Assembly (NCBI GenBank): GCA_020073545.1
Contig: JAIQEZ010000005.1
Span: forward strand, 1-64,000
Source of the DNA: Terriglobia bacterium
GTDB taxonomy: Bacteria; Acidobacteriota; Terriglobia; UBA7540
DNA: 64,000 nt
Direction: 5' to 3'
In this document: in pieces, positions 5,975-27,650 of the stretch
Layout of the letters: the number at the start of each line of letters is the position of its first letter
Position numbering within the stretch: the first letter of the stretch is position 1
The notes under the pieces: model-generated
The model's input: only the letters and a program-made list of their open reading frames with translations
The model's database searches: none
What the model was told of the DNA's origin: nothing
Position numbers and translations under genes: made by a program

Positions 5975-6730
5975 CTACGCGCTTTCGTTGGCCATTGCCG
6001 CCGGCCTGTCGCGGAACATCGAGGCTGGACCTGGTAATCTTTGCGTGTCCCCCTGCGGCAGGAACCTACGCAAGGGGCATTCCTCACAGCGCGCCACTTG
6101 CCGCCGACAGTAGCGTTTGGCCACCTCGACCATCAAGGCGTGAAACTCATTGAACATCGCTTCATCAGCCGGCAGATGGTCGTGGAGGAACTGCTGGGCG
6201 GATTTGTAGTCTGCGGTCGCGGCAAGGAGTTGGTGCCGAGAAAGAACCCGGCGGGTGTAAGCATCCGCGACAAACAGGGGGTGCCGTCCAGCATACAGCA
6301 AAATCGCATCCGCCGTCTCCGGGCCGATTCCCTGGAGACTGAGAAGTTGCTGGCGGCCCCGCGCTGATTTCATCGAAAAAAGCGAGTCCAGCGAGCCGCC
6401 CAGCGTACGTTCTAACCAATCCGCAAAATCGTGAATGGTCCGCGCCTTTTGCCGATAGAACCCGGCCGGGCGAACGCAGGACTCCAATTCCTTTAGAGAG
6501 GCCTGGCGAAGGGCGCGCCACGTGAGGAGGCCAGCTTTTCTGAGGTTCTTCAAAGCCAACGTCGCATTCCGCCAGGTCCTGTTCTGTGTAAGAATGGCTC
6601 CCAGAATGATTTCCAGCCGCGTTCGGGCAGGCCACCAACCCTGCGGCCCGAAGCTTTCGAGCAGGGTCAGGTACAACTGGCGGAGAGTTTCACTTGGCGC
6701 CGCCGCGCTTTGCTGAGCCACCATGTGCAT
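5975..6730 (-). CDS. Endonuclease III-like DNA glycosylase (COG2231/MagIII type)
   Basis: A 251-residue HhH-GPD protein. The helix-hairpin-helix is 'LQGIGPETADAILLYAG' and the catalytic Asp lies in 'LFVADAYTRRV'. The Lys that endonuclease III uses as Schiff-base nucleophile is Glu here ('GPETAD'), as in the MagIII-like 3-methyladenine glycosylases, so a monofunctional base-excision role is likely. The C-terminal cluster reads C-x6-C-x2-C, but the fourth Cys of the usual iron-sulfur loop is Leu, so the cluster is probably absent or incomplete. An in-frame ATG two codons later is an equally good start. It is the first gene of a two-gene unit with the NtrY-like kinase. Confidence 0.8.
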   Translation of the reverse strand: MHMVAQQSAAAPSETLRQLYLTLLESFGPQGWWPARTRLEIILGAILTQNRTWRNATLALKNLRKAGLLTWRALRQASLKELESCVRPAGFYRQKARTIHDFADWLERTLGGSLDSLFSMKSARGRQQLLSLQGIGPETADAILLYAGRHPLFVADAYTRRVLSRHQLLAATADYKSAQQFLHDHLPADEAMFNEFHALMVEVAKRYCRRQVARCEECPLRRFLPQGDTQRLPGPASMFRDRPAAMANESA

Positions 6731-6914
6731 ATTTGGGAAACTTATACTCGCCCCCCGGCAAAGTCAAGGCAACCGGGGCGGCTGAGGAGCAGCCGGGATG
6801 CCTTGGGGCGTGATGCCAGGTGCGCGGCGGACTCTAAAAGCCCCGGCGCAGCCGTTCACGCCAGGAATGAACCCGAGTGAGACGTACCAGAGGTACTAGG
6901 TCCGGGAAATCGCC

Positions 6915-24304: not shown

Positions 24305-26500
24305 TCACTGTTTTTGAGCTATTTCCGCAAAATCCGCTATGCCAGCGAACAGCTCGTCCAGCTTCTTTAGCAAGCGCAAGCGGTTCTGGCGAATTTCCCG
24401 GTCCTCCGCCATGACCAACACTTTGTCGAAGAAGCGGTCGACGGCTGGCCGCAGGGTCGAAATCGCTTCCAGGGCCTGCCGATACTGGCGTTCCTCCCGG
24501 TATCGCGCCACTTCCCCGGCGATGCCGCGATAGGCCTGGTCAAGCTCGATTTCCTGCGGTTCCTTCAAAAGACTCGTGTCAACCTCGCCAGGTCGCCAGT
24601 CGGCTACCGTCGCCGACTTCGTCAGGATGTTCCGGATACGTTTCGCGGCCGCGCAGACAGCTTCAAAGTCCTCCCCACCCCGCAGCGATTCCAGAGCCTC
24701 GACGCGCTCCGTAGCATCGAGGGGGTTGTCCCAACTGGCAGCCGCGGCCAGGACTGCTCGCACGGTATCGTACCGGAAACATCGAATGTTTTCGAGATAA
24801 TACTCCAGGCGCTCACGAAAGAACTCGTGCACAGCCGGCAAGGTACGACTCCAGGGGACTTCCGTAAGAATACCTTCTTCCGCATGGCCGGCGAGGTACT
24901 CATGAAACTTTTGGATCAAGCTCCACAACGAAATAGATATCTTAAATTCAAGTAAAACTTTAATTATCCCATTCCCTTGCCGACGCAACGCGAACGGGTC
25001 ACCCGAACTCGTCGGTTGATGCTCGACGGCGAAGCCTGCGACCACGCTGTCAAGCTTGTCGGCCAGCGACACCAGCGCGCCGACTAGGGTGCGCGGCGAC
25101 TGCCCTTCCGGTCCCAAAGGCAGATAGTGGTCGTAAATGGCGGTGGCAACTTCGTCAGATCTTCCTTGAGCTTTTGCGTAGAGCCCCCCCACCACCCCTT
25201 GCAGTTCCGGGAATTCCTGCACCATCTGGGTGGTCAGGTCCGCCTTGCACAGATCTACCGCACTGAACACGTTTTCCCATTCGTGGGGAGCGACGAGTTT
25301 CTTCTCTTGAAGTGCCTCGAAGATGACTCGTGCAACCTTAGCCATCCGCGCGACCTTGTTCGCGTAACTGCCGAGCCCCGACTGAAAGGTAATCGTGTGA
25401 AGCAGAAGGCCACGTTCCAACAAGGTCTTCTTCTGGTCGGCGTTCCAAAAGAACTCCGCGTCGCGGAAGCGTGCGGTCAGCACGCGCTCGTGCCCCTGGC
25501 GAATCAGGCCCCTCGCGTCCGAGTCCATGTTGAGCACGGCGACAAAGTGCGGACGCAGGTTCCCCTGCCCGTCCTCCACGGCAAAGTACTTCTGGTGGTC
25601 GCGCATCACGGTGATCAGGATTTCGCGCGGCAAGTGAAGGAACCGCTCTTCGAAGCCCCCGAGCATGGGCCTGGGCCACTCGGTGGAGTTCGCGATCCAA
25701 TCAGCCAACCACTCATCCTGGACGATCTTGAGCGAGGCTTTTTCAACCAGCGCTTGAGCTTCCCGAATGAAGCTCGCCCGGCGCCGCGCAGGATCAATCT
25801 CCACATGTGCTTGCGCCAATTTCTTCGTGTAATCCATGAAGCCTGCAACGCGTAGCGGCCTCGCGCTTTTGGCGCGATGCCCGAAGGTGAAATCCCCGGA
25901 CTTTACGCCCAGGATTTCGAAGTCGACCGGCTTCGCCTGCTTCCCTTCTCCCAAGACAGCCAACACCCAGCGAATGGGCCGCACAAAGCGCGGCGCCGAC
26001 TTCTCCGTCCAGTACATGCTCTTCGGGAAGGTCAGGCCCAGGATGGCTTGCGGCAAAATCTCCGGCAGGATCTCGCGGGCAGGACGGCCCCGGGTGGTTT
26101 TCCGCAGCGCCAGATACTCCCCTTTGGGAGTGATCACCCGGGTCAAATCCTTCAGAGGGACTGAGTTCTTCTGCGCGAAGCTCTCCGCCGCCCGCGTGTA
26201 ATCCCCTTCTGCATCGACCGCCACCTTGACGGGCGGTCCGACGATCTCTTCGATCTTGTCCGGCTGCTGAGCCAACAAGACCGGAACGTGGATCACTAGG
26301 CGACGCGGCGTGGAATACGTCCCCAGGGCCGATTCACGAATCGGGGGCTCATCATTGGCTGGCAGCAGCCGGGCTTCGCTGAGGGCCGCCTGGACCCGTT
26401 CGCCCAAGCCCTTCTAGGCGTCGCGGAGGAAGCGCGCGGGGATTTCCTCGCAGCCAACTTCGAGCAGCAGAGGCAGCGCGGCCACGCCAGGTGCCGTCAT
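24305..26500 (-). CDS. glyS: Glycyl-tRNA synthetase beta subunit with in-frame amber codon
   Basis: The beta subunit binds tRNA and completes the alpha2beta2 glycyl-tRNA synthetase. From 26407 downward the frame encodes 700 residues with standard GlyS blocks ('YSTPRRLVIHV', 'GVVGGLYAKAQGRSDEVATA', 'DPFALRRQGNG') and a C-terminal anticodon-binding-like domain. The conserved N-terminus lies upstream in the same frame: from the ATG at 26500, with GGAGG 7 bases ahead, it reads 'LLLEVGCEEIPARFLRDA', then TAG (26416-26414), then 'KGLGERVQAALSEA'. GAG to TAG would explain it. The gene may be mutated, the base may be a sequencing error, or translation may restart at the TTG at 26407. An AT-rich patch occurs around 24941-24963. 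Confidence 0.85.
24941..24963 (-). repeat. AT-rich palindrome family, copy D, inside glyS
   Basis: On the coding strand the core is TTAAAGTTTTACTTGAA. It matches copy B at 19 of 21 positions. Here it encodes part of 'GIIKVLLEFKIS' and forms an AT-rich island in a GC-rich gene. Since that protein segment is conserved in GlyS, chance resemblance remains possible. Confidence 0.4.
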
Positions 26501-26660
26501 GCTGGCACCTCCATATAACCGTCATTCCCGCGTAAGCGGGAATCCACTGTAGGGAACCGAGCCTGGACCCCCGCCTGCGCGGCGGTGACGGCCCGAGCTA
26601 GCGCCATCGCGCTCGCTTGGCCATTCCCGCCCAGGTTGGAATCCAGTGTATGTGGTGCGG
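26501..26660. repeat. Intergenic repeat with CATTCCCGC hairpin
   Basis: GTCATTCCCGCGTAAGCGGG followed by AATCCACTGTA forms a hairpin, and a second related unit (CATTCCCGCC...GGAATCCAGTGTA) follows about 100 bases on. The same hairpin, inverted, occurs at about 150-180 after the IS30 remnant. It sits between glyQ and glyS. Confidence 0.5.
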
Positions 26661-27650
26661 TCACGCCGACGCCTCCGCGGCAGGTTGCCGCTCGAGGTAG
26701 ATGGCCGAGACTTCGCAGGCCAGCTTGCGCACGCGGGCGATGAGCGCCACGCGCTCGGTTACGCTAATGGCGCCGCGCGCGTCGAGGATATTGAACAGGT
26801 GCGAGCACTTCAGGCAGAGGTCATAAACCTTGCGAAGCGGAAAGCGTTGTTGACTTAAAGTAATACTTGAAATCATCGCCACATCTCTTTTGGGCGCTTT
26901 ATCTTGCTCCTCGCTCCGGTTTCGCGGATACTCGTCCAGCAGGCGTGCCGCCTCGGCTTCGTAGAGGTCCAGGAGCTTGCGGCAGGTCGCGGCGCCAGCG
27001 GATTCGAAGTCGTAAACCGAAAACTCCAGTTCTTCCGTGCGCCGCATGTCGCCATAGGTCACGGTCTCATTCCAGCGCACCTCGTAAACGTCCTCGACGT
27101 TCTGGAGGAAGGCCGCAATGCGCTCGAGCCCGTAGGTCAGCTCGACGCTAATGGGCTCCAGATCCACGCCGCCCGACTGCTGGAAGTACGTGAACTGAGT
27201 GATCTCCAAGCCATCGAGCATGACCTGCCAGCCGATGCCCCAGGCGCCCAGTGTAGGGGCTTCCCAGTTGTCTTCCTCGAAGCGGATGTCGTGGTGGCGA
27301 ATGTCGATTCCCAGCGCCCCCAGGCTTTCCAGATACACGTCCTGGATGCGCTCGGGCGGCGGCTTCAGGATGACCTGCATTTGCGTGTGCTTGAGCAGGC
27401 GGTTGGGATTTTCACCGTAGCGGCCGTCCGCGGGGCGGCGGGAGGGCTGCACGTACGCCACGCGCCAGGGCTCGGGCCCCAAGACCCGCAGGAAGGTTTC
27501 CGGGCACATGGTGCCCGCGCCCACCTCGACGTCGTAAGGCAAGGCGATGACGCAACCTTGCCGCGCCCAGAATTCGCTGAGGCGGAAAAGCATGGCCTGA
27601 AACGTGAGCGGCCCGGCAACCTTGCGGGGCGATTTGTCCCTAGGTGGCAT
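26661..27650 (-). CDS. glyQ: Glycyl-tRNA synthetase alpha subunit
   Basis: A 329-residue class II synthetase subunit that activates glycine. Diagnostic blocks are '[20 protein letters not shown]', '[20 protein letters not shown]', '[17 protein letters not shown]' and '[20 protein letters not shown]'. It is about 25 residues longer than typical members because of a stretch around '[20 protein letters not shown]' before the last conserved block. That stretch includes AT-rich sequence (copy C of the palindrome family). It pairs with glyS about 160 bases downstream. Confidence 0.93.
26852..26875 (+). repeat. AT-rich palindrome family, copy C, inside glyQ
   Basis: The core TTAAAGTAATACTTGAA matches copy A at 19 of 24 positions. 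It lies in the stretch that makes this GlyQ longer than usual, so an in-frame insertion is possible. Confidence 0.5.

Follow-up and report, generated by a model that had tools for sequence, protein, structure and literature searches.

A single in-frame TAG codon in glyS of a draft acidobacterial genome is probably a wrong consensus base

Background

Bacterial glycyl-tRNA synthetase (GlyRS) of the heterotetrameric type (alpha2beta2) is composed of the GlyQ and GlyS subunits. In E. coli, the B1 domain of the beta subunit (residues 1-65 and 125-215), whose first elements are strand S1 and helix H1, is in contact with alpha; deletion of the whole domain disrupts the tetramer, and adenylate synthesis requires the N-terminal part of beta (PMC8464048). 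The locus described here resembles this system in its full-length GlyS match, the adjoining upstream glyQ, the conserved LLLEVGCEEIPARFLRDA start and the lack of any other lesion, and differs from it by one TAG at codon 29, confined to the present assembly. Cases of amber suppression and UAG recoding (supE/supF tRNAs, pyrrolysine, UAG-Sec) share the in-frame UAG inside a conserved gene. Here, however, no tRNA with a CUA anticodon was found, genuine stops are often UAG and the tRNA-Sec serves UGA. A further comparison is with metagenome-assembled genomes (MAGs) in which a single base, through an error or as a strain variant, creates a stop: there too an isolated lesion lies in a conserved single-copy gene and further such lesions occur in the same draft. 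The difference is that glyS is essential, so that an error is more probable than an allele that became fixed. The literature was searched for reports of such nonsense errors in essential MAG genes, and no matching paper was found.

The window analyzed is a stretch of 64,000 nucleotides from a Terriglobia bacterium (assembly GCA_020073545.1, contig JAIQEZ010000005.1). The assembly is an acidobacterial MAG of 5.28 Mb in 261 contigs, 95.5% complete and with 3.56% contamination. The nearest glyS matches are in Acidobacteria/Terriglobia metagenome genomes, whose isolate names indicate soil, fen, sediment and groundwater as habitats.

Results and Discussion

The glyS gene and its in-frame stop

The features of the locus, and of two comparable genes elsewhere in the assembly, are listed in Table 1. 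On the minus strand, glyS reads MTAPGVAALPLLLEVGCEEIPARFLRDA, then a stop (TAG), then KGLGERVQ, confirming the amber codon that an earlier note had reported in the conserved N-terminus; the ribosome-binding site and start codon, described there as intact, are indeed so, with a 6-base spacer between them. Past the TAG, 702 codons are open and end at a TGA (24305-24307), and the full-length GlyRS beta match spans these codons, which are conserved and carry no other lesion. The frame of the assembled gene is thus interrupted once: the PF02092 match (positions 1-536) contains exactly one internal stop, and the read-through frame matches TIGR00211 over positions 2-684 of 684, against a cut-off of 300 bits. 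A structure that might act as a readthrough signal was considered for the 60 bases 3' of the TAG, for which the native sequence alone gave a folding energy of -28.7 kcal/mol.

Table 1. Features of the glyQ-glyS locus and two other genes of the assembly with a single in-frame TAG
Feature	Location	Strand	Evidence
glyS, GlyRS beta subunit, frame including the internal TAG	24305..26500	-	PF02092 587 bits, TIGR00211 714.5 bits
TTG, first in-frame start 3' of the TAG; SD-like AGAAGG 2-3 bases before it	26405..26407	-	sequence, TIGR00211
Stop codon TAG, codon 29 of glyS; GAG in closest relatives	26414..26416	-	sequence and relatives
glyS start ATG	26498..26500	-	sequence
Shine-Dalgarno GGAGGT, 6-base spacer to glyS ATG	26507..26512	-	sequence
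Dispersed palindromic repeat of the CATTCCCGCGTAAGCGGGAATCCA type, filling the glyQ-glyS spacer	26521..26589	-	about 30 partial copies elsewhere in the genome
glyQ, GlyRS alpha subunit, intact, directly upstream of glyS	26661..27650	-	PRK09348 411.6 bits (cut-off 369); TIGR00388 401.7 bits, above cut-off
RhaT-like transporter gene with one in-frame TAG (about 15239)	L231 / G000:C16:14871-15896	-	relatives have TGG (Trp)
Sigma-54 AAA gene fused to a truncated PIN-TRAM frame, TAG at 6736, reading LILG*SGTGKE	L163 (G000:C1) about 6600-6740	+	by-eye inspection

The Glu (GAG) expected after FLRDA is borne out by the relatives. Codon 29 is GAG in three close ones (L008, L022/L063 and L113, reading RDAEK or RDAEKS) and GAA in L025 and its near copy L064, while in farther relatives the codon specifies Glu, Gln, Arg or Thr; Glu is thus usual at this position, not invariant. 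In the E. coli beta subunit, the corresponding residue would be Ala24. PF02092 matches were found in 37 of the 41 genomes searched; a stop within the match was present only in the window's own and in none of the other 36. The difference from the relatives is explained by one substitution, without indels. A pair of compensating frameshifts was considered in its place and rejected; the flanking codons are in frame with the relatives, so a single substitution suffices.

Selection on glyS and search for a second GlyRS

An early nonsense codon might mark glyS as a decaying pseudogene, its role having been taken over by another GlyRS. In the tree of relatives, the terminal branch of the window's glyS measures 0.28, close to the range seen in its sisters. 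From the common node this glyS is about 0.33 away, the sisters lying between 0.26 and 0.36. No acceleration of this branch was seen. As the distance falls within the sisters' range, with no sign of relaxed selection, and the 702 codons are free of further lesions, glyS has been normally constrained, at least up to the very recent past; the same absence of acceleration and of a second lesion indicates a gene that is functional in nature. Nor did the assembly yield a candidate that could have replaced it. glyS is single copy, and no dimeric (alpha2-type) GlyRS was found above cut-off in the genome, the best TIGR00389 match being too weak to count as one (31 bits vs a cut-off of 243). A DNA search of the MAG for a second copy of the glyS start matched only the repeat in the glyQ-glyS spacer. 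The second synthetase that had been proposed as a check is therefore missing from the assembly in both forms, as a GlyS copy and as the dimeric type. With glyQ intact upstream as well, these results contradict decay of glyS, which we consider highly improbable.

Stop codon usage and tRNA genes

Another reading is that UAG is decoded as sense in this gene, whether by an amber suppressor tRNA, by recoding of UAG or by insertion of the Sec type. Stop usage was counted in a sample that covers 1.25 Mb of the assembly and that also served for the scan for lesions described below. Among the ORFs of at least 400 codons (n=328), 169 end at TGA, 108 (33%) at TAG and 51 at TAA, so that UAG does not have the rarity of an amber-recoding organism, and the earlier statement that TAG is a normal stop here holds for this sample. 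No CUA anticodon was present among about 49 RF00005 tRNA matches, read with ARAGORN or by eye, in this 95.5% complete MAG, and an amber suppressor tRNA, also suggested as a check, was accordingly rejected for the assembled sequence. The tRNA set is not quite complete: tRNA-Tyr and some Thr, Gly and Val isoacceptors are missing from the matches, and a suppressor could sit on a missing contig. The genome does recode UGA as Sec, but its tRNA-Sec has the anticodon UCA (TCA) and is a UGA reader, which eliminates it as a reader of UAG. In agreement with the earlier view that recoding was improbable, the frequent termination at TAG, the lack of a CUA tRNA among those found and the UGA specificity of tRNA-Sec make a sense reading of UAG very unlikely, and we give almost no weight to it as an explanation of the glyS codon. 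Nothing here points to a novel decoding mechanism, and the finding is an ordinary one.

Other single nonsense lesions in the assembly

The 1.25 Mb sample was scanned for stops with strongly coding sequence in the same frame on both sides, and the candidates were judged by eye; the resulting count is therefore a minimum and gives no rate. At least two single-TAG lesions resembling that of glyS were found; the rest were adjacent genes, shadow frames and Sec codons. The first lies in the RhaT-like transporter gene, where a relative with 79% identity and four others have TGG at the position of the TAG. The second is inside the GESGTGKE motif of the sigma-54 AAA gene, where the residue replaced is presumably Glu, as expected from the family motif. 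This frame is fused to a truncated PIN-TRAM (YacL-like) frame, an arrangement that looks like a chimeric contig or assembly, or else a recombination. A TolB/tricorn-like frame (L208 16034-16280, plus strand), in which short open stretches occur along with several stops, was also noticed and is probably a pseudogene remnant.

That all three single-lesion nonsense codons are TAG could be counted in favor of UAG as sense. However, TAG is the stop most easily reached at the present codon usage, being expected in 53% of single-step nonsense changes, so that three of three is unremarkable (about 0.15 by chance), and the residues replaced are not alike (Glu, Trp and probably Glu). With two further single amber lesions in 1.25 Mb, isolated nonsense lesions of the glyS type are background noise in the present assembly.

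Restart at the downstream TTG

The main rival to a consensus error is a TAG that truly exists in the assembled strain. It would then be a recent nonsense allele, either tolerated at low level because of weak readthrough or a restart at the TTG, 9 bases 3' of the stop, or else present in a non-viable or minor subpopulation. Consensus bases in drafts are mostly correct, and a TTG does follow directly 3' of the stop, with the SD-like AGAAGG adjoining. A start there would give a product of 700 aa that keeps TIGR00211 positions 36-684 (684.6 bits, the match beginning at 36 instead of 2); as the earlier note had anticipated, such a protein lacks the conserved start, profile positions 1-35 being lost. 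The spacing between a Shine-Dalgarno sequence and its start is usually about 5-9 bases, and the AGAAGG, at 2-3 bases, is therefore too close to the TTG for efficient initiation. By comparison with E. coli, the 700-aa form would lose S1 and the first portion of H1 from its B1 domain; in E. coli the tetramer depends on B1, and adenylate synthesis on the N-terminal part of beta (PMC8464048). There is also no second GlyRS to compensate and no comparable stop in any relative examined. We regard a real nonsense allele as possible but rather unlikely. A TAG that is both true and maintained, with GlyS made by inefficient readthrough or stop-reinitiation at the TTG and termination at codon 29 setting the GlyRS level, is extremely doubtful; if it existed, an essential aminoacyl-tRNA synthetase would be controlled in an unusual manner.

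Consensus error as the preferred explanation

The best explanation, and in our judgment the probable one, is a wrong consensus base in the draft MAG, and we rank it ahead of a real allele of the assembled strain. The glyS of this acidobacterium would then be an ordinary, functional GlyRS beta gene, in which a single G-to-T change on the gene strand turned GAG into TAG; the wrong base may have arisen in sequencing, in library preparation or by merging of strains, and GAG would be the major base in the reads. This explanation is supported by the lone lesion, the open and conserved frame downstream, branch lengths that show no relaxed selection, the GAG or GAA of relatives that are themselves free of stops, and the nature of the draft, with its many contigs, its contamination and its two further single-TAG lesions. 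Moreover, with one copy of glyS and no GlyRS of the dimeric type above the cut-off, a real null allele should be lethal. Against a consensus error counts the contig itself, which is 72.9 kb long and otherwise good at the site. The TAG in glyS is in itself of little importance, and when an essential gene of a draft MAG carries an isolated nonsense codon, an error of the consensus or a strain variant should be assumed unless there is contrary evidence from reads, relatives or a suppressor.

Putative selenoproteins

In-frame TGA codons at the position of a redox Cys were observed in four peroxiredoxin-like genes and one AhpD/CMD-like gene of the same genome (L190 16024, plus; L191 14042, minus; L191 13438, minus; L216 7207, minus; L221 10611, plus), in contexts such as FYPADFTFV*ATEF and NHCFY*IEAHG. 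There is a tRNA-Sec(UCA) at C139:6453-6543 and a SelB at C253:4941-6836. Together with the TGA codons, these genes suggest that the organism makes several selenoproteins. Selenoprotein families of the Prx and AhpD-like types were already known, as were a few selenoproteins from acidobacteria (PMC1794560).
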